Shown here piece by piece: positions 381 through 32,503 of a stretch of 33,283 nucleotides of DNA. Origin of the DNA: Acidobacteriota bacterium (GTDB taxonomy: Bacteria > Acidobacteriota > JAAYUB01); the NCBI GenBank assembly GCA_017996395.1, contig JAGOHA010000028.1:1-33283 (forward strand), given 5' to 3'. A model generated the notes under the pieces. That model had not been told where the DNA came from. It saw nothing but the letters and a program-made list of their open reading frames with translations, and did not search any database. How positions within the stretch are numbered: position 1 is the first letter of the stretch; each line of letters begins with the position of its first letter. A program made the position numbers and the translations under genes.

Positions 381-389
381 TGCTATAGT
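381..389 (+). promoter_or_regulatory. Extended -10 promoter candidate for the CHAT-sigma operon
   Basis: TGCTATAGT fits an extended -10 element (TGn followed by a hexamer one base off TATAAT). No convincing -35 hexamer lies 16-18 bp upstream, which is tolerated with an extended -10. A transcript would start near 396 and give a leader of about 45 bases before the GTG start at 440. Confidence 0.4.
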
Positions 390-439: not shown

Positions 440-3400
440 GTGAACAGAGTGTTCGGGACGGTGGTTGGTCTGGGATTGTCCTGGTTGGTGTGGACTGCGG
501 GAGTCCGGGCGGACGATCCGCCGCCGGCGGTTGCGGACGTGACCGTCGTGAAGGCGGAGGCGGGCTTCGCCATGGCCAGGGCCGGCGTCGAGCCCGCCGA
601 CGTGCTGCTGCGCTGGAGACGGTTGGCGGGCGCGGCGGAAAGGGGGGAGACGCTGGCCTCGTACTTCCATCTCAAAGAGGTGGAGATCCTGCACGCGCCG
701 CGCGGCGGCGTTGACATCCTGGTGCGTCGCGGCGAGACCGAGCGTTGGGTGGCAATTCCGGCGTACGAATGGCGGCTCTCGGTGCGCCCCGCATTGTCCG
801 GCGAGGCCGGTGTGGCGCAAGCGGATGGGGAACGATTGCTCGGGGCCAGAGATGTGGATGGTGCCGTGGCGCGATGGAGCACCGGGGCGGCCGAAGCGGC
901 CACGCGGGGCGACCACCTGACGGCGGCGTGGTTGCATCTCCGGTCCGGACAGGCTCTGGCTGAGGCCAAGCGGTGGGCGGCCGCTGTCGATGCCCTGGGG
1001 CATTGCGCCGACACGCTGGCCGCCGTGGAAGCGGGGCGTTTCCAGCCCATCGTTTGGGACATGCAGGGCGAACTCCTGCGCCAGGACAAGCGGCCGGAAT
1101 TGTCCGTGGAGATGCACCGGAAGGCGCTGGCCGCATGGGCGCACGACGGCGGGGAACTGGGCCGCGCCAACAGCATGGCCAGCCTGGGCCACTGCGCCTG
1201 GCAGCTGGTTCGCTGGCCTGAAGCCGTCCAGTGTTATGAGAACGCCCTGGCGATCCGCCGGGAAGTGGCGCCTGATTCCATGCTCGTTTCCGGCTCCCTG
1301 ATGATGCTGGCCACGGCGTATTCCAACACCGGCGACCTGGCCGCCGCCGACCGCTGCTTGTTGGAGGCGCTGGCGATCCATCGGCGCCACCTGCCGGGTC
1401 ATGCCGCGGAAGCGAACATCCTGAACACGCTGGGCGTCAACGCGTCCAAGGCCGGCCACCAAGGCAAGGCCCACCAATATTTTGAGGAATCCCTCCGGCT
1501 CAAGCAGGCGCAAAGCCCGGATTCGATGGCGGTGGCGTACACCCTGAACAACCTGGCTGCCGTGGCCCGCTTGCAGGGCGATCTGGCGCTGGCGGAGGAT
1601 TACCACCGGCAGGCCCTGAAGATCAAGTTGGCGCTGGAACCGGACAGCGCCAGCCTGGCACGCTCCTACCACAATATCGGTCAGATCTACATGGCGCGCC
1701 GGGATTTTCCGGCCGCGGCCGACTACCTCAACCAGGCCTTGCAGATTCTGGAGCGGAAGGCCCCGCGCTCACGCGAGTGCGCCGACTGCCTGGAACAGCT
1801 CGGCAACCTCGCCCGCCTGGAAAACAAGTTTGACCTGGCCGAAAAGCGCCACCAGGAAGCGACGGCGATCCGAATGCAGGTGTCGAACGATCCGTTGGAT
1901 CAGATCCGCACGCTGATCACCCTGGGTGCCATCCGCCTGGAGAGCGGCGACCCGGTCCAGGCGGAGACCCACTACCAGGCCGCACTGAGCATGGCGCGGC
2001 AATCTGCGCCGGCCAGCCTCTATGAGGCCCGCAGTCTCCGGGGACTGGGCGACGCCTGCCTGCGGCGGGGCGACCTGGTGGCCGCCGCGCCGGCATTGGA
2101 GGGTGCATTGAAGATCTTCGCCGCCACCGCACCCCTGACCATCGACGAGGCCACGACCCAACACCTGCTGGGGGACCTCCACCGCCGCCAGGATCGGCTG
2201 CAAGACGCCCTGGCCTGCTACGAGCGCGCCGTGGCCGCGCTCGAGGGGCAACTCGAAAAGCTCGGCGGCAGCCGGGAGGTTGCCGAATCCTTCGCCGCAG
2301 AATATGCCGGCTTTTACAAAGACGTGCTGGAATTGAAACTGCTGTTGAACGATCCCCGGGGCGCGTTCAACGTCCTGGAGCGCTTCCGCGCACGCAGTCT
2401 GCTGGCCATGTTGGTCGAGCGCGATCTGGACTTTTCCCGCGACGTGCCGGCGGGGCTGCTGGAGCGCCTGGAGACCGCGCGCACCCGCAGCCGCGAGGCG
2501 CAGGATGAGCTGATGCAGCTAAGTCCCGACAAGGAGCCGGAACGCGTCACGGAGTGCCAGCGGCTGTTGTCGGAGCGTCGCCGCGAACAGGCCCTGGTCT
2601 GGGAGGAAATTCGCAGGGAGTCCCCGCGCCTGGCGGCGCTGCGGGCGCCGGAGACGCTGACGGCGGACCAGGTCGCCGAGGTGATGGGGCGGGACACCCT
2701 GTTTCTGTCCTACGCGGTGAGCGAGCGGGCCACCCACCTGTTCGCCCTTCTGAACGGCCAGCTGCGGGTGGAGTCCGTTCCGCTCGGCCGGCAGCAGGTG
2801 CAGGAAGCGGTGGAATACTATCTCGCCATGCTGAGCAATCCCGCCAGCCGGAAAGTCCGGCTGATGGGCCGGGCTCACGCCCTGTACCGGCAACTCGTGG
2901 CGCCGGTCGACGACCTGGTGCGGCGCTCGCAGCGCATCGTGGTATGCCCCGACGGACCGCTGCACATGATGCCGTTCGCCGCGCTGGGCCCGGCCACGAA
3001 CCGCTACCTGATCGAAGAGAAACCGGTTTCGTACGTGATCTCCGCCACTGTGTACGCCGACGGCTTGCGGCATGAACCGCAGCGTGCCTCGCGGCCGGTG
3101 GTGCTGTTCGGCGACCCGGACTATCCGGGCCAGGCCGCCGGCGGATCGGCTGCGCGGCTGCTCCGGTGGGTGCTCCGTGATGACCCGGTGCCGCCCCTGC
3201 CCGCGTCGCGCGACGAGGTGCAGGGGATTGCGGCCTTGTACCCCGGCGCTCACGTGGCGTACCTGGGCGCCGAGGCCCGCGAGGAGCGGGTGAAGTCGCT
3301 GGACCGGCAACCCGGCTACCTCCACTTCGCCTGCCACGGTTTTTACAATCCGGTGAATCCCATGGACAGCGGGCTCCTCCTGACCATCCCGGGGGAAGGA

Positions 3401-3802
3401 GGCGACGACCGCGACAACGGCTTTCTCCAGGTTTGGGAAGTTTTTGAGAACGTGCGGATCGACGCCGAGCAGGTCAGTCTGTCCGCCTGCGAGACCGCCC
3501 GGGGCCGGGAGCTTGGCGGCGAAGGACTGGTGGGGTTGAACCGGTCCTTCCTGTACGCCGGGGCGCGCACGGTGATGTCCACGCTCTGGAGCGTCGCCGA
3601 CGCATCGACGGCGGAATTCCAGAAACTCTACTACCGGCACCTCAAGTCGGGCCGAGCCAAAACCGAAGCCGCCCGACTCACCCAGCGTGAGTTCATCAAC
3701 GGCAAGGTCCGCATCGTGCCGACGGAGCCCGCCGGAGAACCGCCGGACCTCAGTCACCCCTACTTCTGGGCCGGCTTCGTATTGAACGGACAATGGCGCT
3801 AG
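440..3802 (+). CDS. Exported PDZ-like / TPR / CHAT-domain protease
   Basis: The protein has 1,120 residues. I start it at GTG 440 because AAAGGAG lies at 424-430, nine bases upstream, and because this start exposes a signal peptide: a hydrophobic stretch over residues 4-22 and a cleavage-type end VRA before DDPPP. An earlier in-frame GTG at 401 would bury it. A PDZ-like segment follows (about 30-115, with AGVEPADVLL), then many TPRs (about 130-620), a charged helical linker, and a C-terminal CHAT domain (about 740-1120). CHAT belongs to the caspase-like (clan CD) peptidases. The expected pair is present: His966 in HFACHG and Cys1017 in LSACETARG, so the enzyme looks active. The signal peptide implies action outside the cytoplasm. 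The 3' end overlaps the sigma-factor start by 10 bases, which indicates coupled translation. Substrate unknown; the anti-sigma factor two genes downstream is an obvious candidate. Confidence 0.9.
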   Translation: MNRVFGTVVGLGLSWLVWTAGVRADDPPPAVADVTVVKAEAGFAMARAGVEPADVLLRWRRLAGAAERGETLASYFHLKEVEILHAPRGGVDILVRRGETERWVAIPAYEWRLSVRPALSGEAGVAQADGERLLGARDVDGAVARWSTGAAEAATRGDHLTAAWLHLRSGQALAEAKRWAAAVDALGHCADTLAAVEAGRFQPIVWDMQGELLRQDKRPELSVEMHRKALAAWAHDGGELGRANSMASLGHCAWQLVRWPEAVQCYENALAIRREVAPDSMLVSGSLMMLATAYSNTGDLAAADRCLLEALAIHRRHLPGHAAEANILNTLGVNASKAGHQGKAHQYFEESLRLKQAQSPDSMAVAYTLNNLAAVARLQGDLALAEDYHRQALKIKLALEPDSASLARSYHNIGQIYMARRDFPAAADYLNQALQILERKAPRSRECADCLEQLGNLARLENKFDLAEKRHQEATAIRMQVSNDPLDQIRTLITLGAIRLESGDPVQAETHYQAALSMARQSAPASLYEARSLRGLGDACLRRGDLVAAAPALEGALKIFAATAPLTIDEATTQHLLGDLHRRQDRLQDALACYERAVAALEGQLEKLGGSREVAESFAAEYAGFYKDVLELKLLLNDPRGAFNVLERFRARSLLAMLVERDLDFSRDVPAGLLERLETARTRSREAQDELMQLSPDKEPERVTECQRLLSERRREQALVWEEIRRESPRLAALRAPETLTADQVAEVMGRDTLFLSYAVSERATHLFALLNGQLRVESVPLGRQQVQEAVEYYLAMLSNPASRKVRLMGRAHALYRQLVAPVDDLVRRSQRIVVCPDGPLHMMPFAALGPATNRYLIEEKPVSYVISATVYADGLRHEPQRASRPVVLFGDPDYPGQAAGGSAARLLRWVLRDDPVPPLPASRDEVQGIAALYPGAHVAYLGAEAREERVKSLDRQPGYLHFACHGFYNPVNPMDSGLLLTIPGEGGDDRDNGFLQVWEVFENVRIDAEQVSLSACETARGRELGGEGLVGLNRSFLYAGARTVMSTLWSVADASTAEFQKLYYRHLKSGRAKTEAARLTQREFINGKVRIVPTEPAGEPPDLSHPYFWAGFVLNGQWR

Positions 3803-4662
3803 ATCCTCCCATCCACGATCCCGAGGATTTCCTCACCCGCAACCTGCCGCAGGTGGAACGGGTCATCGGGTGGGTGGGCCGCCGCCGGGGGCTGCTTGCG
3901 GACGAACTCGAGGAGTTCCGCTCGCGCGTGCTGGTCCGGCTCGTGGAGAACGACTACGACGTCCTGCGTAAATTCAGAGGCTTGAGCAGTGTCCAGACCT
4001 TCCTGGTGACGGTGATCCAGCGCTTGCTCCTCGACTACATCGCCCAGGAGCGTGGCCGCTGGCGGCCGTCGGCTGCCGCACTCAAGCGCGGCGCGCTGGC
4101 GGTGGAGCTGGAAAAGCTCATGGTGCGCGGCCGGCGCACGTTCGAGGAGGCGTTTGCGGCCTTGAGCGCGCGCCACGGGGAGCCCCTCGACCGGGACGAG
4201 CTGTTCCGGCTGGCGGCGGAGTTGCCGTTGCGCCGGGCGACGACGCTGGTGCCCCTGGAGCTGGTGGAGAACCTGGCGGCGCAGGGCCAGTCGGCGGAGA
4301 AGGAATTGGGGCGGATCCGGCACGTGGAACAGTCCGCCCGGCTCAGCGCCGCCCTGCGCGACGCGCTGGCGGGCCTGCCGGCCGAAGACCGCCTGCTCAT
4401 CCGGCTGCGCTACGTCGAAGGGCTGACCGTGGCCCAGCTCGCCCGCTCGTTCGGCGGCAACCAGGTCGCCCTCTACCGGCGGTTCGAGAAGATCCAGGAG
4501 CGGCTGCGCAAACTCCTGGTGCGGCGGCGCACGGTGCGGGAGTCCGTCGACGAGATGCTGGGCTGCGCGGACGCCCGAAAATCGCTGAACTTCTTTGACG
4601 ATGCCGTCGACGCGCGCGGGGTCATGGGCGGCGGAGAGGATCCGGGGGAAAAACCCGGCTAA
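3793..4662 (+). CDS. ECF-like RNA polymerase sigma factor
   Basis: This 289-residue protein has sigma region 2 at about residues 30-95 (the EEFRSRVLVRLVENDYDVLRKF part, then a WR-rich end) and sigma region 4 at about 190-245 (LPAEDRLLIRLRYVEGLTVAQLA followed by a helix-turn-helix). It would direct RNA polymerase to a dedicated promoter set. The linker between the two regions is about 90 residues, longer than in ordinary ECF factors, and there is a roughly 40-residue C-terminal tail. ATG 3793 lies inside the last codons of the CHAT gene, in another frame, so translation is probably coupled. An anti-sigma-type gene follows after 67 bases. Being sandwiched between a protease and an anti-sigma factor suggests release by regulated proteolysis; this is inference. 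No ECF-type GGAAC element is visible upstream of the operon, so autoregulation is not supported here. Confidence 0.85.
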   Translation: MALDPPIHDPEDFLTRNLPQVERVIGWVGRRRGLLADELEEFRSRVLVRLVENDYDVLRKFRGLSSVQTFLVTVIQRLLLDYIAQERGRWRPSAAALKRGALAVELEKLMVRGRRTFEEAFAALSARHGEPLDRDELFRLAAELPLRRATTLVPLELVENLAAQGQSAEKELGRIRHVEQSARLSAALRDALAGLPAEDRLLIRLRYVEGLTVAQLARSFGGNQVALYRRFEKIQERLRKLLVRRRTVRESVDEMLGCADARKSLNFFDDAVDARGVMGGGEDPGEKPG

Positions 4663-4729
4663 ACGGTCGGGCGCGGCCGTCTAATGCGATGAGCGCCACA
4701 CCGGCAGTTGCCGGGGGAGGATCAGCGAA

Positions 4730-5770
4730 ATGCGTGAACAGATGAACTGCCCGGACCTGGAAGAGATCGCCGCCTGGGCCGACGGCCGCCTGGACGAGGA
4801 CCGGCAGCGGGCGATCGTGGACCATCTGGACCGGTGCCCCGAGTGCTACGACCTGGCGGCGGGGGCCATCGCGTTCCGCCAGGAGGCCGATTCCGCCTGG
4901 CAGACGCCGGCGGCGGCTCCGGTCCGCGACTTCCGGGCCGCGCCTCGCTGGGCCGTTCCAGCCGCGGCCGCGGCCGCGTTGTTGCTGGCCGCCGTCCTCA
5001 TCGCGGTTGCGCCCGTACAGATGACGGGTCCGGCGCCGGCCGCGGCCGTCCCGATCGTGCCGGCGACACCCGCTGCCGCACCGGACCAGGTGTTGCCGGC
5101 GCCATCCGTTCCTGACAATGCCGGCGGGGATCGCCTGGCGCAAGTCCTGCACCAGGCGAGTGTCCTGCCGTCTGTCCGGGCGGCGATGGCTGCGCCGGCT
5201 GCGGTTCCCGCCGCCTGGGCGGCGGAGATCCGGCTGCCGGAAGGTGCGGCGTACGGATTCGGCGCTCCGCCGGCGGACGGCTGGTTCGCCCTCGGGATGC
5301 GCTGGGTGGAGGCCGAGCTGCACCTGCAGGCGGGCGACCCGGCGGCAGCCGCCGAGACGCTGGCCCGCATCCGCCGCGACCTGAAACGACTCGGTGGAAC
5401 GGCCGAACTGGGGTCCGACTACGACCGCACCGAAGCCGGCCTGCGCCAGAGCGAGATGACAGAACTGCCTGCGGCGCTCTTCGACCGGACCCTCGCCGCC
5501 GGCGGGGCGCGCGGCGCGGCCCGGATGGAACTCGGCGCCTGGGTGGGCGGCGGCCGGATCGCCGCGCGGACCGGCTACGGCGCATATTTCAAGCTCGCCG
5601 AGATCGATCGCCTCGAAGCCGGTGTGGGTGCCGCAGGCGGCCCGCCGGGCGTCGCCGGCGCATTCGATGAAATCCGCCGCCAGATCGATGCCGGGCTTCC
5701 GAACGCCGCATCGTTCCGCCGGACCGACCGGGCCCTTGTGGATATCGGACTTTTGCTGCGCGGGGAATGA
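4730..5770 (+). CDS. Membrane anti-sigma factor with zinc-finger (ZAS/zf-HC2-like) domain
   Basis: The protein has 346 residues. The start is ATG 4730, with GGGGGAGG at 4713-4720; a second ATG at 4742 is possible. The N-terminus has the anti-sigma zinc-finger pattern: Cys7, then His32-x3-Cys36-x2-Cys39 (HLDRCPEC). An Ala/Leu-rich membrane span covers about residues 73-95. The rest, about 250 residues, would lie outside the cytoplasm; its first part is Pro/Ala-rich and the remainder is probably helical. The expected role is to hold the sigma factor encoded just upstream through the cytoplasmic zinc finger and free it on a signal received outside. Its outer domain shares a compartment with the exported CHAT and M48 proteases of the same operon. 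Its stop overlaps the next start as ATGA. I do not recognise a specific fold in the outer domain. Confidence 0.8.
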   Translation: MREQMNCPDLEEIAAWADGRLDEDRQRAIVDHLDRCPECYDLAAGAIAFRQEADSAWQTPAAAPVRDFRAAPRWAVPAAAAAALLLAAVLIAVAPVQMTGPAPAAAVPIVPATPAAAPDQVLPAPSVPDNAGGDRLAQVLHQASVLPSVRAAMAAPAAVPAAWAAEIRLPEGAAYGFGAPPADGWFALGMRWVEAELHLQAGDPAAAAETLARIRRDLKRLGGTAELGSDYDRTEAGLRQSEMTELPAALFDRTLAAGGARGAARMELGAWVGGGRIAARTGYGAYFKLAEIDRLEAGVGAAGGPPGVAGAFDEIRRQIDAGLPNAASFRRTDRALVDIGLLLRGE

Positions 5771-7572
5771 CCATGCGCCGATTCTTGCTCGTGAGCGTCA
5801 TCCTGGCCGGCTGGGCGGCGGCACTTCCCGCCCAGGACGCCAATCCCGCCGACTCGGCGGGCTGGTGGATCCGGAACTACGGCTTGCTGACCATCCAGGA
5901 GGAGCCGCTGGTGGGCCGGGCGGAGCAGGTGTTCGGGCGGGTGGTTGCCGCCGCCGACAAGAAGGGGAACCGCCTGCCCAGTCTGGTGGTGATCCGCGGC
6001 GATGGCGACCCCCATGCCGTCGCCCTGCCCGACGGCAGCATTGTCATGTCCGCCGGCGGCCTGCGCCTGTGCTACCGGGATGTCCCCCCCGCCGACGGCG
6101 ACGCGCGGTTGGCCTTCCTCCTCGGACACGAGCTGGCCCACTTGTCCAAGGACGACTTCTGGCATCGCTCCGCGTTCATGGCGCTGCAGAAATATCCGGG
6201 CACCGAAGACCGGCGCCAGCTGCTGGAGGAATTGCTGGGCCAGGCCGGCGGCGCAGCGGCCTCGGGCGAATCCATCCGCAGTGTCGTCCGGGTCAAGGAG
6301 CTCCAGGCGGACAGCTATGGTCTCGTCTACATGACCATCGCCGGTTACGATCCGGCGGTCATCCTGGGCGGGGGCCAGTCGTTCTTCGAACAATGGGTCC
6401 GCCAGCTGCCGCACGCCGCCGCCGACGGCGGCGAGCATCCCTCCCCGGGGGACCGGGCCGTTTTTATGAGGAGCCAGATGGTTCAGGTGGTCGATGAACT
6501 GGACCTGTTTCACTTCGGCGTCCGGCTCGCCCAACTGGGCCGCTACGAGGACGCCGTGCGGCTGCTGGAGCGCTTCAGCCACCGCTTTCCGGGCCGCGAG
6601 GTGTTCAACAACCTGGGCTTCTGTTACTACGAGCTGGCCAGGCAGGCGCCGGTGTTCCAGAGCCATGCCGACAGTCTGCGCTTCGATCTGCCGGCAGTGC
6701 TGGACCCGTACACGCCGGCGAGCCGCTACGAGCTCCGGCGCCAGGAGGGGCCGGAGTACCGGCAGGATCCCCTCTTTCGCGGCCGGCTTGACCAGGCGAT
6801 CCGGTGCCTGCGCGAGGCGGCCGATCGGGACCCGTTCTACGTGCCGGCGCGGGTGAACCTGGCGTCGGCGTTTGTCCTGAAGGGGGAATATGCCCGGGCC
6901 CTCGCCGCCGCCGAGGACGCGTCGAAACTGGACCCGGCGGATGCCGCCGCCGGCGTGGCCAAGGCCGTGGCGCTCTACCTGCTGGGCGACAGCAGCGGAT
7001 TGAGCACCTCCGGCGCCGCCATCGAGCTGCTCAAGGGAATCATCGAACGTCGCCCCGACAGCGCGGCGGCCGTGTACAACCTGGCAACCATCCTCGCCGA
7101 GCGGGGACGGGCCGCCTCGGCGCACGAGGCCCGGCAGGCGTTCCTTCGGATCGAATCGGCGGGTCCGTACGCCGACGAGGTGCGCCGCGTCCTGGGCCTG
7201 CCGCACCCGGAACGGGCCGCCCGACGGGATTCCGGTTTGCCGGTGCTTTACGCCGACCGGGTGCCCGTGGGCGAAGTCACAGACGAGATCGAGCGACGGC
7301 TCAAGCCGATGCGGAAGATTCCGTTCGACGTGGGTGATTTCGCCGGCAACGTCTACCGCGGAGACGGCTTGCGGATCCTGGAGCTGGACTATTTCCTCGA
7401 ACTGGTCGAGGACAGCGCGGTGGGAGTACCCGACCGCCAGGCCTGGCTGGACCGCTTCGGGCCGCCCGACCGGCTGATCCGCGTGGGCGGCGGGGAGCTG
7501 GCGGTGTACCGCACCTTCGCCCTGGATATCGCGGACAACCGAATCCGTGCCGTGGTTCGTTTCGCGGAGTGA
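5767..7572 (+). CDS. Exported M48-family metalloprotease with TPRs
   Basis: This 601-residue protein begins with a signal peptide (hydrophobic residues about 5-20, then ALPAQD). An M48 zinc-peptidase domain spans about 30-230. The HExxH site is H121-E122-x-x-H125 (GHELAH), and E178 in KELQADSYG fits the third zinc ligand, followed by the family Asp182. TPR-like helical repeats follow (about 245-470), then a mixed C-terminal domain of unknown type. The arrangement resembles periplasmic BepA/YfgC-type proteases, although this protein is longer. The start overlaps the anti-sigma stop (ATGA); ATG 5773 is an alternative. The position after a membrane anti-sigma gene suggests it degrades either that protein or misfolded envelope proteins. 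Both readings are inference. Confidence 0.85.
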   Translation: MTMRRFLLVSVILAGWAAALPAQDANPADSAGWWIRNYGLLTIQEEPLVGRAEQVFGRVVAAADKKGNRLPSLVVIRGDGDPHAVALPDGSIVMSAGGLRLCYRDVPPADGDARLAFLLGHELAHLSKDDFWHRSAFMALQKYPGTEDRRQLLEELLGQAGGAAASGESIRSVVRVKELQADSYGLVYMTIAGYDPAVILGGGQSFFEQWVRQLPHAAADGGEHPSPGDRAVFMRSQMVQVVDELDLFHFGVRLAQLGRYEDAVRLLERFSHRFPGREVFNNLGFCYYELARQAPVFQSHADSLRFDLPAVLDPYTPASRYELRRQEGPEYRQDPLFRGRLDQAIRCLREAADRDPFYVPARVNLASAFVLKGEYARALAAAEDASKLDPADAAAGVAKAVALYLLGDSSGLSTSGAAIELLKGIIERRPDSAAAVYNLATILAERGRAASAHEARQAFLRIESAGPYADEVRRVLGLPHPERAARRDSGLPVLYADRVPVGEVTDEIERRLKPMRKIPFDVGDFAGNVYRGDGLRILELDYFLELVEDSAVGVPDRQAWLDRFGPPDRLIRVGGGELAVYRTFALDIADNRIRAVVRFAE

Positions 7573-10357: not shown

Positions 10358-11785
10358 ATGCGTTGCCGCAGTTGGTGGATTCTGAGCATGCTGGCGGTGG
10401 CGGGAGCCTTCTGCCTGCCGGCGACGTACTATGTCTCGCCCGCCGGCAGCGACGGCGGTTCGGGCTCGTCGGCGCAGCCCTGGCGGACACTCCAGCACGC
10501 CGCCGACCAGGTTCAGGCGGGGGATGTGGTGCTCGTGCGAAGCGGGTCCTATGCCGGCTTCCGCTCCAAATCCTCCGGTGCGGCGGGACAGCCCGTGCAA
10601 TTCAGGGCCGAAGCCGGCGCGTCCGTGGTGATCCATACGGTGGGGCCGGACAACTGGCACGGCAGCGTCATCAACATCGAAAACCACGACTGGTGGCTGG
10701 TCGACGGATTCGAGGTCACCGGCGCCACGGGATCGGCCGGCATCGACGTCCGCGAGGCGGACCACATCGTCATCCGCAACTGCCACTGCCACCACAACCA
10801 GAAGTGGGGCATCTTCACCGGTTTCGCCGAAGCGTTCACCGCCGAGTACAACGAGTGCGCCTACTCCGGCGAGGAGCACGGCATCTACCACAGCAACAGC
10901 GGCGACGATGCGGTCATCCGCCACAACTACTGTCATCACAATCGCGGCTGCGGCATCCAGATCAACGCCGATCCGTCCATGGGCGGCGACGGGATCTGCG
11001 CCGACGCCCGGGTGGAGTACAACGTGGTCACCGCCAACGGCGCGGGCGGCGGGGCCGGGATCAACCTCGCGTCGGTGCGGACGTCCCGGATCACCAACAA
11101 CCTGATCTTCGGGAATCAGGCCGGCGGGATCGCCATGTGGGACGACGGTCAGGGCACCCAATGGGGCTGCCGGAACAACCTGATCGCCCACAACACGGTG
11201 CACATGCCGTCGTCGGCGCGATGGGCGCTCAACATGATCAACGGCTCCACCGGCAATCAGGTCATCAACAACATCCTCATTCATGACGGTTCCCGCGGCG
11301 GCCTGGAAACAGACACGGGCAGTCTGGACGGCCTGGTGTGTGACTACAACATCATGATCCGCATCAGCCTGGACGATGCCTTTCTGACGCTGGCGGCGTG
11401 GCAGTCAGGCTACGGCCAGGATGCCCACTCGGCTTCGCGCACGGCTGCCGAGCTTTTCATCAATCCCGGCGGCGATCACCACCTGCTGGAGTCGGCCTGG
11501 GCGGTGGATCACGGGCTGACGCTCGGCGCGGTCGTGGACGATCTCGACGGCGTGGCCAGGCCCCGGGGAGCCGCCTCGGACATCGGCTGCTACGAGCGGG
11601 CCGCCGGCGCGCTCGTCGGCGACTTGAACCGGGACGGCACCGTGGACGACGCGGACGTCATCCTGCTGGCCGACTACCTGGCGGGGAATCTCCGGTCTGA
11701 CGACCTGGCACCGGCCGATGCGGACCTGAATCAGGACGGCGCCGTCGACGCGGTCGATCTGGCGATCCTGAAACGGTTGCTGTAG
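10358..11785 (+). CDS. Secreted right-handed beta-helix protein with C-terminal dockerin-like repeat pair
   Basis: The protein has 475 residues, with GGAGGAAACGATCC just before ATG 10358. A signal peptide covers about residues 1-22 and is followed by TYYVSPAGSDG, the usual opening of DUF1565/parallel beta-helix proteins. The middle (about 50-380) is made of short Asn/His/Gly-rich turns such as HHNQKWGIF, EEHGIYHSNSGD and NNLIFGNQAGG, typical of PbH1 repeats found in polysaccharide lyases and related surface proteins. The C-terminus (about 415-475) holds two EF-hand-like calcium loops, DLNRDGTVDDADV and DLNQDGAVDAVDL, which is the dockerin type I pattern. No cohesin is encoded in the window. 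It is likely secreted and may bind or cut polysaccharide; catalytic residues are not evident. It follows the glycosyltransferase by 61 bases and may be co-transcribed with it. Confidence 0.85.
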   Translation: MRCRSWWILSMLAVAGAFCLPATYYVSPAGSDGGSGSSAQPWRTLQHAADQVQAGDVVLVRSGSYAGFRSKSSGAAGQPVQFRAEAGASVVIHTVGPDNWHGSVINIENHDWWLVDGFEVTGATGSAGIDVREADHIVIRNCHCHHNQKWGIFTGFAEAFTAEYNECAYSGEEHGIYHSNSGDDAVIRHNYCHHNRGCGIQINADPSMGGDGICADARVEYNVVTANGAGGGAGINLASVRTSRITNNLIFGNQAGGIAMWDDGQGTQWGCRNNLIAHNTVHMPSSARWALNMINGSTGNQVINNILIHDGSRGGLETDTGSLDGLVCDYNIMIRISLDDAFLTLAAWQSGYGQDAHSASRTAAELFINPGGDHHLLESAWAVDHGLTLGAVVDDLDGVARPRGAASDIGCYERAAGALVGDLNRDGTVDDADVILLADYLAGNLRSDDLAPADADLNQDGAVDAVDLAILKRLL

Positions 11786-11843: not shown

Positions 11844-12872
11844 TCAATAGCTGCTCGCGGTCAGTTTCACCTTGCCCCGGAAGATCCAGTAGATGCTCAC
11901 CGTGTAGGCGATCACCAGCGGCATCCCCAGCAGCGCGATGACGAGCATGATCCCCAGCGTCTGGGGCGATGAGGCGGCGTTGTACACCGTGAGGCTGTTC
12001 GCCGGCGCCGGGTTGGAGAAGATCAGGTTTGGATACATGCCGATGCCGAACAGAGCCAGCAGGGCCAGCATGGCGGCGCACGACGACAAAAAGGCGTGGA
12101 ACTCGCGGCCGTGATGGATCTCGCGGGGGATGTTGGCGATGGCCAGCATGTTCAGCAGCGCCAGGAGAAACAGGACCGGGTGGCGCTTGATGGTGTCGGT
12201 CATGTTGGGCACGTACAGCAGGGTGGCCATGGTGGTGGTCACGTAGCAGATGATGAAGCCGATGATGGTGTTGTTCACCCAGCCGCGGACCTTGGCCTGC
12301 AGCTCGCCGTCGGTCTTCATCACCGTGTAGATGGCGCCGTGCATCATGAACAGCGCCACGGTGGTGACGCCCACCAGCAACGCATACGGGTGCAGCAGAG
12401 AGAGAAACGAGCCGGCGAACTCATGCCGTTCGGTCAGCGGGATGCCCCACGCCACGTTCCCCAGCGCCACCCCGATGAGCAGGCTGGAGACGATGCTGCT
12501 CACCGCGAAGCTGCCGTCCCACATCTGCCGCCATCGTCGCCCGGGCTGTTTCGAGCGGAACTCGATGGCGACCGCCCGGAAAATCAGCGCCACCAGCAGC
12601 AGCATGAACGCGAGATAGAATCCGGAGAAGGCCGTGGCGTACACTTCCGGGAACGCTGCGAACAGAGCCCCGCCTCCGGTGACCAGCCAGACCTCGTTGC
12701 CGTCCCAGACCGGGCCGATGGCGTTGATCATGATCCGGCGCTCGGTGTCGGTCCGGGTGAACAGGTGCAGTGCCCCGACGCCCAGGTCGAACCCGTCCAG
12801 GATGGCGTAGCCGGCGAACAGGACGCCCACCAGGATGAACCAGATGGTGTTCAGGTCAATCAGCGCGCTCAT
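11844..12872 (-). CDS. cydB: Cytochrome bd ubiquinol oxidase subunit II
   Basis: The protein has 342 residues and matches CydB from its first helix: [20 protein letters not shown], then [35 protein letters not shown] and [11 protein letters not shown]. About nine hydrophobic helices are present. With CydA it forms the inner-membrane quinol oxidase that reduces oxygen to water without pumping protons and works at low oxygen. Its ATG overlaps the cydA stop by four bases (ATGA), so translation is coupled. No small third subunit (CydX-like) is visible after it; the 58 bases before the next gene hold no start with a usable frame. Confidence 0.95.
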
Positions 12873-14218
12873 GCCCGTTGTCCCTCCCCCGCGGTTTCGT
12901 CATCGACGGGTCCGTGCTGGATCTTCTCGTTGAGCAGGTAGACAAACAGCACGAAGAGCAGCAGGTAGACCAGGCCGAACAGGATGATCGACGTCAGCAC
13001 CTCCCCGGCGCCGACCACCGGCGACAGGGCGTCGGCGGTGCGCAGCAGCCCCTGGACGATGTAGGGCTGACGGCCCACTTCGGCCGACGCCCAACCGGCC
13101 TGATTGGCCAACTGGGGTCCCAGCACGGCGAACACCAGCAGCCACAGGAACCAGCGCGTCTCGAACAGCCGGCGCCGCCACCACAGGAACAGGCCGAGCC
13201 AGGACAACGCCAGCAGCGCCATTCCCAGGGCCACCATGAGGTGGTACGTCTGAAAGACCAGGTTGACCGGCGGCCGTTCGCCGGGCGGCACCGCCCGCAG
13301 TCCCGCCACCGGCGTGGCCGGGTCGCCGTGAACGAGCCAGCTCAGCATGCCCGGCAGCTTCACACCGAGGCGGACGGTTTCGGCCTCCTCGTCCACCCAG
13401 CCGAACAGGTAGAGGGGCGCCGGGGCCGCCGCCTCGTAGTGGCCTTCGTAGGCCGCCAGCTTCACCGGCTGATTCCGGCTCACCCCCATGGCGCTGGAGT
13501 GGCCCGTCGCCAGCTGCATCAGCGAGGCGAACGCCGCCACCACCAGCCCCACCTTCATCGAGATTTTCGCAAACTCCGCATGCCGCCGGCGCAGCAGATA
13601 CCACGCGCTCACGCTGAGCACGAAGAACGCCGCCGCCTGCCAGCCGCCCAGCACCGCGTGGCTCAGCCGGTCCAGAGTGGACGGATTGAAGACCACCTGC
13701 CAGAAATCGACGATCTCCGCGCGGGGGCCGTTGGGTCCCATGACGATGTGATGTCCGGCGGGGGTCTGCTGCCAGGAGTTGGCCACGATGATCCAGACGG
13801 CGCTGAAGTGGGCGCCGAACGCCACCAGGATCGTGGAGATGAAGTGCATGCGCGGGCTGACCTTGTCCCAGCCGAAGAGGAGAATGGCCAGGAAGCCCGA
13901 CTCGAGGAAGAAGGCGAACACGCCTTCGGCGGCCAGGGCGCTGCCGAACACGTCGCCGACGAAGCGGGAATACGCCGACCAGTTGGTCCCGAACTGAAAC
14001 TCCATGACGATGCCCGACGCGACGCCCAGGGCGAAGACCAGGCCGAAGATGCGCACCCAGAAGCGGGTCATGTGGTGAAACAGGGGATTTTTGGTCTTCA
14101 GGTACATCCCCTCCATGGCCACGAGGATGACGCCGAGGCCGATGCTCAGGGGCGGAAACAAGTAGTGGAAGGCGATCGTCAGGGCAAACTGCAGGCGGGA
14201 CAGAAACAGAACGTCCAT
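12869..14218 (-). CDS. cydA: Cytochrome bd ubiquinol oxidase subunit I (short Q-loop form)
   Basis: The protein has 449 residues, shorter than the roughly 520 of the E. coli subunit, because the Q-loop lacks the C-terminal insertion. Heme ligands line up: His18 in FHYLFPP, His187 in LSHAVLGGW, and Met328 in YHLMVALG. The acidic residues of the heme pocket are kept in [14 protein letters not shown], as are the quinol-loop residues in [13 protein letters not shown] and the family motif GRQPY. The position equivalent to E. coli Arg391, two before the Met ligand, is His326 here. It is an inner-membrane enzyme that oxidises quinol. The start is ATG 14218, preceded by AGGGAG at 14224-14229; a small hairpin sits just upstream of that site. 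Confidence 0.95.
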
Positions 14219-21939: not shown

Positions 21940-23865
21940 TCACGCACCCGCGGCGATCTGACGGCTGGGCGGTTCCGGCGGCGGTGGCGGCGCCGGAGCT
22001 TTGTCCGGCTTGGCAGGCGGCGCCGGCGGTGCCGGTGGGGCGGGCGGCGCCGGTGGAGCGGTTGCGGCCGCCTTTTTCAGAGGTGCCGGCGGTTTAGGCG
22101 GTGCCGGCGGTTTAGGCGGCGCCGGCGGCTCGGGCGGTTCGGTGTCCCGGTCGAGGTCCAGGTCGATATCGATATCGAGATCATCGAGGCCGCTCAGCAA
22201 CTCATCCATGTCTCCGACCAGGTCGTCCATGTCGCGGGTCCAGTGGTCCATGTGTTGGCGGTAAGCTTCCACTTCGATCCGGGCCAGCTCCTGGGCCGTT
22301 TTCCGGATCTCCTCGATCAGGGGCTGCAGCTCGGCCGTGAAATCGGCTTTCACCGTCCGGGCGGCGGCGCGCAGTTCCTCGCGGGACTGGCGGACGCGCT
22401 CCGTGGCAGCCCGTCGGGCTTCCGTGGAATCTCCCGCCTCGCGCAGCTCCGTTTCCAACTGGGCCTGCAGATGCTCCATCTTGGCCTGGAGCGCCCCGTT
22501 GATCTGTTGGCCGACCGCATCGATCTTCTGCTCCAGGAACTGCAGCTTCTTTTCGAGCTGCTCCCGGCGCGCCTCGAGCTCCTGGCACTTCTTTTCGGTG
22601 GCGGCCTGCTCCGCTTTCAGGCGCGCCTCGTCCCTGGCGGCCGGCGCCGATTGCGGTTGGTCGGCCGGCATTGCCGCGTCAGGCTGGGCATCGGGTGGCG
22701 TTGCGACGAGGTCGGCGCACACCACTGCCGGCAGGGTGGGGATGTCCGGTTCCGCGATCTGCAGGAAACTCAATTCGCGGGCGAACAACAGGGCCGTCAG
22801 CCCCAGCAGCGCGATGGCGCCCAAGAGCAGCCATCGGCTGGGGCGAGGATTATGATTGCGCTTTTTATCGAGTAACATTTCAATTCTCCTCCTGAGGATT
22901 TGGCGGGTGTGCACCGCGCCGGGCGAGGGCATGGCGGCGCCGGCGCCGGCGGCCAGCTCCAGGACCCGGGACAGGCACAGGATATACGAACGGCGGCGGC
23001 CGGTGGCGGAGACCACCCAGTCGTCACAGGCGATCTCGCGCTCTTCGGAGAGACGACGACCGATCCAGCGCACCGCCGGTTGGCAGAAAAAGAGGGCCGT
23101 CACCACCTGCTGCAGCAGGTTGGCCCAGTCGTCCCAGCGCCGCAGGTGGGCGGCCTCGTGCAGCACCACCTGGCGGAACTCTTCTGGCGTGAGGCGGCTG
23201 ACCATCGCTTCGGGGAAGAGGATGAGGGGACGCAGGAACCCGGCGACGGTGGGGATGGTGATCCCGGGCGCCACCGCCAGGCGAAAACTCCGTTGGAACG
23301 CGCCCCGGCGCAGCACCAGCTCGTCCGCCAGCCGAGGCTCCGGCTCGATGAGTCGGGCCCGGCGGCGGAAGCGCTGCAGCCGCAGCCAATGGAATCCGAG
23401 GCGCACCATGCCCCCGGCGGCGCCGACGGCCCAAACCAGCATCAGCGTCAGGGTCCAGCTGCCGCCGGGAACCACCAGCGGCGCCCAGGGCCCGGGTTCC
23501 GGTGCCGTCTCAGCGACAGGCGGACGCATTCGCAGCGGTTGTGTCGGTGTCGGGAGCGGACCGGGCAGCCGGGCGGTGGCGGACATCGTGTCCGGGAGGT
23601 CCACCGTGGGTTCAAACCGTGCCGGCGCGGGCGGGTCCCAGTAGGAGGGGGGCTTCGAGGAAAGGGCCATGAAGCCGAGAGTCAATCCCACGATCGCCGC
23701 CAGCGCCACCCACCACACCGCGTAGCGGGTGCCGGCGCTCAATCGTCGCCCGAACCCAAGAATCACGGCCACCCCCAGGGTCAGGAGCAGGCCGGCGATC
23801 AGGCCGTTGATCCAGCCGGCGGCCGCAGGGCGGGCCAGCGACTCCAGGACGAAGACGGGGTCCAT
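21940..23865 (-). CDS. M56-family (BlaR1/MecR1-like) membrane sensor protease with coiled-coil and Pro-rich tail
   Basis: The protein has 641 residues. Membrane helices near residues 17-38, 46-68 and 120-145 surround an M56 metallopeptidase domain with the zinc motif H236-E237-x-x-H240 (LHEAAHLRRWDDW) and the later EEREIACDDWVV. A fourth helix lies at about 340-360 (LLLGAIALLGLTALLFA). In BlaR1 the C-terminal sensor is a penicillin-binding domain. Here it is replaced by a long coiled coil (about 405-550), an acidic run of Asp alternating with Ile or Leu (about 560-572) and a Pro/Ala-rich tail (about 575-641). The signal sensed is therefore probably not a beta-lactam. The start overlaps the repressor stop (TGATG), so the two form one operon. 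The probable role is cleavage of the BlaI-type repressor. Confidence 0.85.
   Translation of the reverse strand: MDPVFVLESLARPAAAGWINGLIAGLLLTLGVAVILGFGRRLSAGTRYAVWWVALAAIVGLTLGFMALSSKPPSYWDPPAPARFEPTVDLPDTMSATARLPGPLPTPTQPLRMRPPVAETAPEPGPWAPLVVPGGSWTLTLMLVWAVGAAGGMVRLGFHWLRLQRFRRRARLIEPEPRLADELVLRRGAFQRSFRLAVAPGITIPTVAGFLRPLILFPEAMVSRLTPEEFRQVVLHEAAHLRRWDDWANLLQQVVTALFFCQPAVRWIGRRLSEEREIACDDWVVSATGRRRSYILCLSRVLELAAGAGAAMPSPGAVHTRQILRRRIEMLLDKKRNHNPRPSRWLLLGAIALLGLTALLFARELSFLQIAEPDIPTLPAVVCADLVATPPDAQPDAAMPADQPQSAPAARDEARLKAEQAATEKKCQELEARREQLEKKLQFLEQKIDAVGQQINGALQAKMEHLQAQLETELREAGDSTEARRAATERVRQSREELRAAARTVKADFTAELQPLIEEIRKTAQELARIEVEAYRQHMDHWTRDMDDLVGDMDELLSGLDDLDIDIDLDLDRDTEPPEPPAPPKPPAPPKPPAPLKKAAATAPPAPPAPPAPPAPPAKPDKAPAPPPPPEPPSRQIAAGA
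22083..22136 (-). repeat. 18-nt tandem repeat inside the M56 gene
   Basis: GTGCCGGCGGTTTAGGCG occurs twice in a row (22083-22100 and 22101-22118), followed by a diverged third unit. It encodes six-residue PPKPPA-type steps of the Pro-rich tail. A second block at about 22011-22060 is built of 9-nt units encoding PPA. Confidence 0.65.
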
Positions 23866-24254
23866 CAGGATTCCTCCCCCTCGGTCTGATCGATCAGCTC
23901 GCGGATCCGGGTCAACTCGTCGCCGGTCAGCGATTCCTGCTCCAGCAGGTTCTGCACCAGCAGCTCCGGCGAGCCGTCGAAGAAGCGGCTGACCACGTGG
24001 TGCAGGGCGCGGCGGCGCGCGTCGGTCCGCTCGGTGGCCGGGTGGTACAGGTGCGCGCGACCCTGCTTCGTGTGCCGGACGTATCCCTTCTCTTCCAGGA
24101 TCCGGAGGAAGGTCAGGACGGTGTTGTACGCCCAGCCCCGTTCGGCACTCAGGGCGGCCACCACGTCGCCCACGGTCGCGGCACGGCGCTCCCAGAGCAC
24201 GTCCATGATTTTCAGTTCGGCGTCGGTGAGTGTGGGAGATTTCTTGCGGGCCAT
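23865..24254 (-). CDS. BlaI/MecI/CopY-type transcriptional repressor
   Basis: The protein has 129 residues. A winged helix (about 8-72) starts LTDAELKIMDVLWERRAATVGDVV, with the recognition helix in WAYNTVLTFLRILEEKGYV and the wing in RAHLYHP. The C-terminal helices (about 78-125) form the dimer part, and RFFDGS lies near the region where BlaI/MecI are cut by their partner proteases. It should repress its own operon and perhaps others until the M56 protein inactivates it. It is the first gene of a two-gene operon. Its promoter region carries two similar AT-rich operator-like sites. Confidence 0.9.
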   Translation of the reverse strand: MARKKSPTLTDAELKIMDVLWERRAATVGDVVAALSAERGWAYNTVLTFLRILEEKGYVRHTKQGRAHLYHPATERTDARRRALHHVVSRFFDGSPELLVQNLLEQESLTGDELTRIRELIDQTEGEES

Positions 24255-24450: not shown

Positions 24451-27400
24451 TCAGATCATTTTCTCGGGCGCCGGCTCGGCCGGCACGGCCGGCGCCGCCG
24501 CGGCGGGACGGGTCCGGATCCACAGGCGGCGCGCCCCCAGGGCAAGGTCGTCGATGAGCGAGTAGACGGTGGGCAGCACGAGCAGGGTCAGGATGGTGGA
24601 CGCGATGAGTCCGCCCATCACCGTCCGGGCCATGGGAAAGTACCGGGCGTTGAAGATGCTGGTGGTGCCGAACGCCAGCGGCAGCAAGCCCACCACGGTG
24701 GTGCCGGCGGTCATCAGGATGGGGCGGAGCCGCTCCAGGCATCCCTCCCGGATCGCCCGGGCGCGGGGCAGCCCGGCGCGCCGGTAATTGTTCACATGGT
24801 CGATGAGGACAATGCCGTTGTTCACCACGACGCCGATGAGAATGAGCAGGCCGATCTGGGCCATGAAGTTGAAGGGCGTGTGGGTGATCCACAGGAAGAC
24901 CGCCACGCCGACGAATGCAAACGGCAGCGAGAACATGATGGAAAACGGATGGGCCAGGCTCTCGAAGAGCGAGGCCATGACGAAATAGACCATGAACAGG
25001 GCCAGCAGCATGTTGAAGAGAAATTCCTGGTTGCCCTGATCCTGCTCCGCCACCCAGCGGTCGAAGCTCCAGGTATAACCCATGGGCAGCGACATGCTGT
25101 TCATGATGTCGGTGACCAGCCGGCGGCTCTCGTCGCGGTTTTCCAGGCCGCAGATCACCCCGATGTAGGCGCGCGTGCGGCGGTCCTCCCGCTCGATGGA
25201 CTGGGCGGTCTTGACGATTTCGAGGTCGGCCACGTGCGACAGGAGAATGTCCCCGCCGTCGGGGCTGCCGCCTACGATCACGCTCTTGAGGTCTTCGATG
25301 TTCTCCCGGTCCTCCTCCCGAAGCTTGACCCAGATCTCCACCTCCCCATCGGCTGAGTGGAAACCACGGATTTCGCGTCCGCGGAGTACGATGCCCAGCA
25401 CCTGCCCGACGGTTTGGGCGCTGATTCCGAATTTGCCCGCGCGCTCCCGATCGAGCCGAATCTGCACTTCCTCCAATCCGCGCTCCTGGGCGGTGTGCAC
25501 TTCCTTGACCACCGGACTGGCGCGGAACCGGCGCTTGGCCTCCAGAACCAGCTCGTTGAGCGTCTGGGTGTCGTCGCCGTAGAGATTCACCCCCACCCAG
25601 TTGGCGGTGTCCACGCCGCGCATCCGCCCCAGGCTGATCCGGGCGCCCGGAATGACCGGCAGTTTTTCACCGATCTGGTCGCGGATCTTGGAGGCTTCGC
25701 CGGCCACCAGACGGGCCTGGTCGAAGTAAACCTGGGTGAAGGCGCTGCCGTTGTTGTAGAAGCTGTACACGTCCTTGATCTTCCAGAGCGCCTTGTTGTG
25801 AAACAGGTAGGCCTCGACCGGGTTGACGTAGGTCTGCTCGATGACGGCGTAGTGGTAGTTTTCGGTGAACTCGTACTGGATGCGCAGGTCGCGCATCTCC
25901 TGGGCCTCGGGCGTGTTGTCCGGCAGCATTTGGAAAGGGATAGCCGCCAGAACGACGATCGCCAGAATGCTCAAGGTCGTGAAGGCGCGGTGGCGCATGG
26001 TCCAGTCGAGGGCGCGGCCGTAACCCCGTGCCAGCGCGGTCCGGGTGGATTCGACCTTGGGCGGACGGATCTTGATGAAGCGGGCCATGGCGAGCGGGAT
26101 GAAAGCCAGCGAGACGAACAGGGAACAACACAGGGCGATGATGATGGAGATGCCCACCTCCGACAGCCAGGTAGAGAACTCGCTCTTCCGGCCGAAGATG
26201 AGGGGGACGAAGATGATGATCGAGGTCAGCGTCGAGGCCACGACCGCCATGACCACTTCGCGGGTGCCCACCCGGGCCGCCTCCATCCGGGTCTTGCTTT
26301 TCTCGATGTGGCGGAAGATCGATTCCAGGGCCACGACGGCGTTGTCCACCAGCATGCCGGCGGAAAGCATCAGCCCCATCATCGACAGCACGTTGAGCGT
26401 CCCGCCCGACAGGTAGAGGATTCCCACCGCGGAGATGATTGAGAAGGGGATGGCGAAGCCCACCACCAGGGTGGCGCCGATCCGGCGCAGGAACAGGAAC
26501 AGGACGCCGACGGCCAGCAGCGAGCCGTAGAAGCCCGACTCCAGCAGGCCGCTGAGCGCCTTGGTGATCTCCTCGGCGGAGTCGTGCCAGATCAGGAGTT
26601 GGATGCCCTTGAGTGCGGGATCCTGGTTGATCTCGTCGATCTTCGCGCGGATTGCCCGGACGGTCTCGACGATGTTGGCGTCGGATGCCTTGAGGATCGT
26701 GACGGCGATGGCGTAGTCGCCGTTGAGGTGGCGGCCGTAGTCGAGCAGAGGCTCGGAATAATCGATGTCGGCGACGTCGCGGAGCAGCAGGCCGCGGTCG
26801 TTGACCGGGAAATTGCGGATGGTCTCGAGGTCGGCCAGGGCGTTCTGGGCCAGCACGCCGAAGCGGTGAACCCCGTCGCGCACTCGGCCCAGAGAGACAT
26901 TGAGGTTGGCGCTGTCCAGCCGGCGGAACAGCCGGCCCACGTCGACGCGGTACTTCTTGATGTCGGCCATGCGGAGGTAGATCGAAATCTCCCGCTTGGA
27001 AACCCCGCCGATCTCCACGTCGGCGACGCCCTGGATCCGTTCCAGGGGCTTCTTGATCTTGTGTTCGAGAAAGTCATAGCTGCCGCGGAGATCGCGTCCC
27101 GACGAGATGCGCCCCTCGATGATGGGGATGTCGCTGGAGCGGAAGTTGCGGACGAAGATGTCTTCCACGTCATCGGGCAAGTCGACGCGGGCCTGCTCCA
27201 CCTTCTCGCGGATCTCGGCACGGATTACGTCGATGTCCAGGCCCCAGTCGAACTCGAGGTTGATGTAACTCCCGTCAGACTGGGAGGTGGCGTTCATCGT
27301 CTTGAGGTGCGCCACCGTGGCCAGGGTTTCCTCGAGGGGCTTGGTGATGGTCCGCTCCACCTGTTCCGGCGACGCATTGGGGTAGGGGACGAAGACCTCC

Positions 27401-27534
27401 ACCTGGGGGAAATCGATCTCGGGGAGCAGGATCATGGGGATCTTGACGATGGAGATGCCGCCGAGCACGAGGAAGCAGAGCATGAACATGCAGACGGTCA
27501 CGGGCGACTTGATGGAGAAGTCGGACAGGTTCAT
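24451..27534 (-). CDS. RND-family efflux pump subunit (HAE1-like), second pump
   Basis: The protein has 1,027 residues with the AcrB-type layout: TM1 near the start, a porter domain, TM2-6, a second porter domain, and TM7-12. In TM4, where AcrB has two aspartates, it reads LVDNAV with Asp397 and Asn398. In TM10 the AcrB lysine position is Asn905 (VVVNNGIV). A single-Asp relay is also found in heavy-metal-type pumps. It is an inner-membrane proton-driven exporter. It starts nine bases after the first RND gene, and its ribosome site overlaps that gene's stop codon, so expression is coupled. Two different pump genes behind one adaptor recall MdtBC heterotrimers. Substrate unknown; no outer-membrane channel gene is in the window. 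Confidence 0.92.
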   Translation of the reverse strand: MNLSDFSIKSPVTVCMFMLCFLVLGGISIVKIPMILLPEIDFPQVEVFVPYPNASPEQVERTITKPLEETLATVAHLKTMNATSQSDGSYINLEFDWGLDIDVIRAEIREKVEQARVDLPDDVEDIFVRNFRSSDIPIIEGRISSGRDLRGSYDFLEHKIKKPLERIQGVADVEIGGVSKREISIYLRMADIKKYRVDVGRLFRRLDSANLNVSLGRVRDGVHRFGVLAQNALADLETIRNFPVNDRGLLLRDVADIDYSEPLLDYGRHLNGDYAIAVTILKASDANIVETVRAIRAKIDEINQDPALKGIQLLIWHDSAEEITKALSGLLESGFYGSLLAVGVLFLFLRRIGATLVVGFAIPFSIISAVGILYLSGGTLNVLSMMGLMLSAGMLVDNAVVALESIFRHIEKSKTRMEAARVGTREVVMAVVASTLTSIIIFVPLIFGRKSEFSTWLSEVGISIIIALCCSLFVSLAFIPLAMARFIKIRPPKVESTRTALARGYGRALDWTMRHRAFTTLSILAIVVLAAIPFQMLPDNTPEAQEMRDLRIQYEFTENYHYAVIEQTYVNPVEAYLFHNKALWKIKDVYSFYNNGSAFTQVYFDQARLVAGEASKIRDQIGEKLPVIPGARISLGRMRGVDTANWVGVNLYGDDTQTLNELVLEAKRRFRASPVVKEVHTAQERGLEEVQIRLDRERAGKFGISAQTVGQVLGIVLRGREIRGFHSADGEVEIWVKLREEDRENIEDLKSVIVGGSPDGGDILLSHVADLEIVKTAQSIEREDRRTRAYIGVICGLENRDESRRLVTDIMNSMSLPMGYTWSFDRWVAEQDQGNQEFLFNMLLALFMVYFVMASLFESLAHPFSIMFSLPFAFVGVAVFLWITHTPFNFMAQIGLLILIGVVVNNGIVLIDHVNNYRRAGLPRARAIREGCLERLRPILMTAGTTVVGLLPLAFGTTSIFNARYFPMARTVMGGLIASTILTLLVLPTVYSLIDDLALGARRLWIRTRPAAAAPAVPAEPAPEKMI

Positions 27535-27543
27535 GGCCGCACC

Positions 27544-30903: not shown

Positions 30904-31003
30904 GATAGCCTCCTGTTCGTAGGATCATGCTGCGCCGGGGATCGCCTGTTTGGAGACGGACTCCTGGCGGGTCCGGCGTGGTCTGTTGCCGAAACGTTCA
31001 CCG

Positions 31004-31025
31004 GGTGGGCGCAGCGGCGCCCGCC
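31004..31025 (-). promoter_or_regulatory. Stem-loop between adaptor and pump genes
   Basis: GGTGGGCGC (31004-31012) pairs with GCGCCCGCC (31017-31025) around AGCG; nine pairs including one T-G. It lies 14 bases after the adaptor stop in a 136-base gap, without a T-run. It could reduce read-through into the pump genes or stabilise the adaptor mRNA. Confidence 0.3.
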
Positions 31026-31039
31026 TCGGCCGGATCCGC

Positions 31040-32302: not shown

Positions 32303-32503
32303 GACCGTTTCCCCCGCTGACATGGATTACTGTGATCAAATACGCGCGGGAAACGCAGATAGTTCAGTCCCCGCGGGCCGGGCGGTGCGATTGCGGGACG
32401 AAACGGATTCCGGCAGGGACGAGTGGGATTTTGGGCGGGATGAATCCTGACGCGCCGACGGACCGCAACCGCGTTCCAGCAGAACGGTTGACGGGTCCGT
32501 GGG

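Follow-up and report, generated by a model that had tools for sequence, protein, structure and literature searches.

Two exported proteases in an acidobacterial sigma/anti-sigma operon: a candidate envelope-sensing switch and its relatives

What might two exported proteases be doing in one operon with a sigma factor and its presumptive membrane-bound inhibitor? The question is raised by a 33,283-base stretch of DNA from an Acidobacteriota bacterium (contig JAGOHA010000028.1 of GenBank assembly GCA_017996395.1), which we refer to as the "window" and which constitutes one whole contig of a genome of 3.7 Mb in 246 contigs. Four open reading frames (ORFs) on its forward strand encode, in this order, a protein with tetratricopeptide repeats (TPRs) and a CHAT protease domain, a sigma factor of the extracytoplasmic function (ECF) type, an anti-sigma factor of the zinc-finger anti-sigma (ZAS) type and an M48 metalloprotease (Table 1). 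An earlier note on this DNA had described four closely set genes on the same strand, and the description is borne out by the ORF coordinates and by Pfam domain searches (CHAT with TPR, sigma region 4, zf-HC2 and M48, respectively): the CHAT and sigma genes overlap by 10 bases, a gap of 67 bases separates the sigma and anti-sigma genes, and the anti-sigma and M48 genes share an ATGA overlap. A near-identical locus is present in a metagenome-assembled genome labelled Acidobacteriota. We consider the chances to be about even that the operon is an envelope-sensing switch, in which dedicated exported proteases act on the outer domain of the anti-sigma factor and so free the sigma factor.

An answer that requires no function at all is that the four genes are chance neighbours in one operon, and the 10-40 CHAT genes that are carried by many Acidobacteriota lend it some footing. 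Two further genomes of the genus, however, have the same four genes in collinear order (~84-96% identical), and the linkage is also met with well outside the genus. A sigma profile search detected the sigma subfamily, which is distinguished in alignments by a long conserved linker separating region 2 from region 4, in 38 of the 396 Acidobacteriota genomes sampled. Neighbourhoods were fetched for nearly all of the matches; gene starts were taken from a simple caller, and the genomes are mostly drafts with contig ends near several loci. In a tree of 53 of these sigma factors, a zf-HC2 gene adjoins 33, and a CHAT domain lies in the fetched neighbourhood of 19. When the window is left out, CHAT is found at 19 of 46 loci of the subfamily, as compared with an expectation of 1.06 given how many CHAT genes each genome has (P ~1e-20). 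The collinearity within the genus and the recurrence outside of it therefore exclude chance, an explanation that we reject as having a negligible probability and that would also have to accommodate the protein fusions and the invariable position of the M48 genes described below. The earlier note had proposed a search for conserved linkage of these families as a check on its idea; the linkage was found, and the idea was not refuted.

The association can also be viewed from the side of the CHAT genes. Among 40 CHAT loci picked by hand across genomes, and thus not strictly random, an ECF sigma gene was present at 25, versus 3 of 20 control regions, which are few and were drawn from large contigs; an ECF sigma gene and a ZAS gene occurred together at 19 of the 40 loci and at none of the 20 controls (Fisher P 6e-5). 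The CHAT link therefore extends past this sigma subfamily. Two Acidobacteriota genomes (G367 and G385) contain 44 and 35 CHAT-domain matches, respectively, a large unexplained expansion.

The most direct indication that the proteases have to do with the anti-sigma factor comes from genomes in which the two are parts of one polypeptide. In one such genome (G030), an M48-TPR region directly follows an anti-sigma zinc finger and transmembrane span within a single protein of 645 residues, in which zf-HC2 and M48 each score over the Pfam cut-off. In eight other genomes, distributed over four families (f24, f25, f38 and f66), a gene lying right after the sigma gene specifies a zinc finger, a transmembrane span, TPRs and CHAT as one protein; Pfam was checked on four of the eight, with the zinc finger of one (L128) slightly under its cut-off. 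Both of the protease types seen in the window thus occur elsewhere joined to an anti-sigma factor. Several changes of state are seen for these fusions on the sigma tree, and at one locus (L144) the parts of the fusion exist as two genes, of which the separate, lipoprotein-like CHAT gene carries the LSGGF/LTGGF region of the fusions. Taken together with the conserved linkage, these single-polypeptide arrangements give good support to the suggestion of the earlier note that the protease/anti-sigma link is CRISPR-free and faces the envelope. The TPR protein encoded after the G030 fusion (L032) was considered as a TPR-CHAT protein clipped by the contig end; its similarity is confined to the TPRs, and it was not counted as CHAT. 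Such loci can also carry other proteases: an S41 gene is found at L130 and a caspase-type C14 gene at L132. The latter locus (L132:3569-10301) has genes for sigma, ZAS, Peptidase_C14, an unknown protein and TPR-CHAT on one strand, and so brings two caspase-fold proteins together.

The distribution of the M48 component is narrower and its linkage is tighter. By profile, the M48-TPR family occurs in only 5 of the 396 Acidobacteriota genomes, from three families (those of the window genus, G030 and G171), and each copy adjoins a sigma factor of this subfamily. The G171 genome has all four genes, with sigma, ZAS and M48 collinear and CHAT divergent from sigma. The three Acidobacteriota sigma factors associated with M48 fall in one part of the tree, a placement that is moderately supported. 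A second search covered 246 genomes sampled from the phylum to which a Planctomyces-labelled record belongs, and yielded one match to the sigma subfamily (G635, which we assign to the Planctomycetota by the label under which the sample was chosen), and here the order is again sigma, ZAS and M48, the last of these being 38% identical to that of the window. In this branch, then, it is sigma, ZAS and M48 that form the tightest set, to which CHAT is often added as a component of its own. The gene that follows M48 in G635 (L230:12199-13509) encodes an apparently exported protein with RCC1-type repeats.

The sigma factor of the window matches NCBIfam TIGR02937 through regions 2 to 4 (63.9 bits, cut-off 42.9). 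The anti-sigma factor is recognized by zf-HC2 (27.3 bits, cut-off 22.2) and contains the HxxxCxxC motif; a single hydrophobic span at residues ~78-96 is followed by a linker rich in Pro and Ala and by a helical domain that, from the presumed orientation in the membrane, would lie outside. This outer domain is predicted to be all-helical, with AlphaFold confidence scores (pLDDT) of ~75-94 across much of residues 185-300. It has no accepted Pfam family, and a fold search with the anti-sigma model returned no match in the PDB at E<=0.001, with only weak matches to helical repeats and to ChrR. It does align with the corresponding parts of anti-sigma factors from several families and from G635 (L120, L230, L130, L131, L123, L124, L145 and L149), and it would be an obvious candidate for the part that the proteases contact.

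Both proteases of the window look active, as judged by their motifs. The M48 domain (35.6 bits in Pfam, cut-off 20.3) has intact HELAH and ELQAD motifs, and the CHAT domain is unambiguous (207 bits, cut-off 24), with the TPRs also confirmed. The claim of the earlier note that the catalytic His and Cys of CHAT are intact holds up in the alignment, where they are His966 and Cys1017 (numbered from GTG 440). It is further likely, if not proven, that the CHAT protein has a PDZ-like domain between its signal peptide and TPRs, which the earlier note had overlooked: a profile built from the N-termini of four homologues finds nearly only PDZ domains, led by that of DegP (E 6.5e-4) and including those of DegQ and HtrA2. 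Pfam accepts no PDZ domain in the window protein, and a homologue (L073) matches PDZ_6 under the cut-off (E 0.002); the AlphaFold model of the N-terminus is uninformative on this point (mean pLDDT 46.8, and <50 at residues 1-118). The homologue just cited and L072, both from genome G003, are the nearest relatives that the window CHAT protein has beyond the genus; they have the PDZ-like N-terminus and no sigma or ZAS neighbour, which suggests that a free-standing exported protease was recruited into the operon.

In E. coli, the membrane anti-sigma factor RseA is degraded by regulated intramembrane proteolysis through DegS and RseP, whereby sigmaE is released. By analogy, the ZAS anti-sigma factor of the window would span the membrane and keep the sigma factor bound through a zinc finger on the cytoplasmic side, while its helical outer domain would be partnered by the M48-TPR protease and, in the majority of lineages, also by the PDZ-like/TPR/CHAT protease. 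A signal arising beyond the inner membrane might alter protease activity; as with DegS, the PDZ-like domain and the TPRs would sense misfolded envelope proteins. The proteases might then trim or destabilize the outer domain, and a site-2 protease of the M50 type could complete the process and set the sigma factor free. We infer each of these elements, that is, the binding of sigma by anti-sigma, the topology, the anti-sigma factor as substrate, the signal and the order of events. The resemblance to RseA/DegS/RseP lies in an ECF sigma factor, a co-encoded anti-sigma factor with a single span and an N-terminal domain of the sigma-binding type, exported proteases (one of them with a likely PDZ-like domain) and an M50 gene in the genome. 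The window differs in its candidate site-1 enzymes, which belong to the CHAT cysteine and M48 metalloprotease classes and not to the HtrA serine proteases; in the location of these enzymes, whose genes are part of the operon of the sigma factor and whose counterparts in relatives can form one protein with the anti-sigma factor; and in the anti-sigma factor itself, a ZAS protein whose helical outer domain is unfamiliar.

Several observations weigh against such a switch. Among the 53 sigma factors of the tree, 14 have a ZAS gene without either protease and 19 have no adjoining ZAS gene. The genome of G635 has no CHAT gene anywhere, so that CHAT cannot be essential to the module. The M50 (RseP-type) gene of the window genome (G000:C182) is full-length (E 4.6e-62), but genes of this kind are near-universal and its presence is therefore weak support. 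The proteases could, moreover, be targets of the sigma factor, or they could be sensors. With regard to the latter, the fused CHAT domains of four proteins from one genus (g76; L127, L133, L137 and L140, from G284, G106, G354 and G166) have lost both His and Cys, and catalysis must therefore be dispensable in at least one lineage. In this genus, CHAT has probably been reduced to a non-catalytic portion of the anti-sigma protein, giving rise to an apparent clade of pseudo-proteases inside anti-sigma factors. Such losses would fit an explanation in which the protease-type domains are mainly ligand-binding sensors or scaffolds of the anti-sigma factor, with an envelope ligand or a misfolded protein changing its conformation and freeing the sigma factor without any cutting, and non-proteolytic ZAS switches of the ChrR type are indeed known (PMC8999054). 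We nevertheless regard this explanation as unlikely, since 60 of the 64 aligned CHAT domains retain both residues, among them the four CHAT fusions outside genus g76, and the HExxH motif and downstream E/D are invariant across all four M48 lineages.

The possibility that the proteases are outputs is the main rival to proteolytic control of the anti-sigma factor. They would then be envelope quality-control enzymes, co-transcribed with the sigma factor or run by it, as happens in other regulons of envelope stress, with some other protease freeing the sigma factor. In this connection, the start of the operon is of interest. The CHAT gene has two possible starts, of which GTG 440 is the better one because it is preceded by a Shine-Dalgarno sequence (AAAGGAG, 424-430) and because the candidate extended -10 element TGCTATAGT stops just 11 bases ahead of the alternative start, GTG 401, and is too near to it. 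With CHAT placed first in the operon behind a conserved sigma70-like -10, its expression need not act back on the stability of the anti-sigma factor. Autoregulation by the sigma factor of the operon was considered and is unsupported, since the -10 is sigma70-like and no obvious ECF promoter motif common to the lineages emerged when upstream regions were inspected by eye. The 33 bases examined 3' of the M48 gene fold no better than shuffled sequences and thus do not suggest a terminator. Also compatible with outputs are the CHAT genes that have no sigma neighbours, such as those of G003, and the resemblance of the M48-TPR layout, an exported M48 domain followed by TPRs, to that of the E. coli periplasmic protease BepA (YfgC). 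However, the M48 protein of the window has additional C-terminal sequence, is tied to sigma and anti-sigma genes and scores only 15.7 bits against the BepA equivalog model (NCBIfam M48_BAM_BepA), for which the cut-off is 570. A zinc finger and membrane span fused to M48 or CHAT would be unexpected for mere outputs, which speaks against this explanation; overall, we hold it to be rather improbable, while still deserving of serious consideration.

Precedents for a CHAT protease in the control of a sigma factor exist outside of the Acidobacteriota operons described here. In type III-E CRISPR systems, the TPR-CHAT protease Csx29 cuts Csx30 and thereby lifts the inhibition of an ECF sigma factor, a pathway that the authors of that work liken to DegS and RseA (PMC10028731). 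The window resembles the type III-E (CASP/Craspase) set of Cas7-11, Csx29, Csx30 and CASP-sigma in that a TPR-CHAT protein is genetically tied to an ECF sigma factor and an inhibitor, but its CHAT protein is exported and has a likely PDZ-like domain, and its inhibitor is a membrane ZAS protein rather than Csx30. No Cas gene was noticed among the annotated genes of the window, the genome itself not having been searched for Cas7-11. The window CHAT protein reaches 31.9 bits with the Csx29 model NF041237, in the CHAT region only (cut-off 300), and the window sigma factor has no match at E<=0.01 to the type III-E sigma model NF041236. Special kinship of the subfamily with the type III-E sigma factor was likewise considered and rejected: one relative (L120) scored 27 bits (3.8e-6; cut-off 100), and NF041236 is outside the 25 commonest matches of the subfamily. 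A second precedent is ECF54, with an example from the Actinobacteria, for which CHAT and other protease genes are conserved nearby and proteolytic control has been proposed without an anti-sigma factor (PMC8999054); the window shares with it a CHAT gene in the context of an ECF sigma gene, and differs in having an adjoining ZAS membrane anti-sigma factor that can be fused to a protease. ECF270 includes an acidobacterial sigma factor with a ZAS regulator and, compared by description only, is similar to the window in this respect; it is listed with soluble anti-sigma factors and no link to CHAT or M48 is mentioned (PMC8999054). The earlier note was aware of no account of this particular set. We likewise found none of the four genes together, or of a ZAS anti-sigma factor fused to CHAT or M48, in a literature search that did not reach most subscription journals; the placement of CHAT beside an ECF sigma factor had already been noted for ECF54 and type III-E.

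The type III-E precedent also raises the prospect of a defence or cell-death module, in which CHAT would be a caspase-like effector and the sigma factor would turn on a response to attack by phage or on the envelope. Predicted conflict systems are known in which ECF sigma genes sit close to genes with caspase domains (PMC8195603), metacaspase operons can include sigma-70 genes (PMC3501461), and the C14 gene at L132 would fit such a scheme. The signal peptides of the CHAT and M48 proteins would not, PADLOC returned only a generic TPR model, and there are no defence genes among the annotated genes of the window; we consider this explanation very unlikely.

The anti-sigma factor of the window might be one instance of a broader class of protease-armed membrane anti-sigma factors, whose outer half either is or recruits a caspase-like CHAT or an M48 protease. 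We put forward only tentatively, as something that is possible yet on balance doubtful, that this class extends over the Acidobacteriota and at least one genome from the Planctomycetota sample, and that it was a CRISPR-free source of the TPR-CHAT/sigma pathway of type III-E. Acidobacteriota TPR-CHAT proteins are numerous (up to 44 per genome), and we found no function assigned to them. Their occurrence beside ZAS anti-sigma factors, or fused to them, suggests a role that can be tested, namely the control of transcription by an extracytoplasmic protease, and offers a CRISPR-free parallel to the protease/sigma pathway of type III-E. The clade with dead CHAT domains would allow sensing to be separated from cutting.

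Table 1. Features of the operon, given in positions of the window
Feature	Positions	Strand	Basis
Candidate extended -10 TGCTATAGT of a sigma70-like operon promoter	381..389	+	Seen in all three genomes of the genus; no ECF-type element evident; inference only
Exported PDZ-like/TPR/CHAT cysteine protease, 1120 aa from GTG 440	440..3802	+	Signal peptide VNRVFGTVVGLGLSWLVWTAGVRA read from sequence
Likely PDZ-like domain (CHAT protein, ~residues 30-118)	527..793	+	Profile search
ECF-type sigma factor, 289 aa	3793..4662	+	TIGR02937 over cut-off; subfamily alignments
ZAS (zf-HC2) anti-sigma factor, 346 aa	4730..5770	+	zf-HC2 over cut-off
Extracytoplasmic linker and helical domain of the anti-sigma factor	5030..5770	+	LGxWxxxxRxAA-like motif; alignment
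Exported M48 metalloprotease with TPRs, 601 aa	5767..7572	+	Pfam M48 over cut-off; motifs

The remainder of the window holds a second switch, of a known kind, in which a protease runs transcription: genes for a BlaR1-type M56 peptidase and a BlaI/penicillinase repressor lie on the reverse strand at 21940-24254. The same strand also holds an RND efflux cluster (24451-32323) with genes for an AcrB-family transporter and a membrane-fusion protein of the HlyD/CusB type, together with a second long ORF (27544-30903) that carries no annotation here. Closer to the operon, a forward-strand gene (10358-11785) encodes a right-handed beta-helix protein with a C-terminal dockerin domain, and subunits I and II of an ordinary cytochrome bd oxidase are encoded on the reverse strand at 11844-14218.

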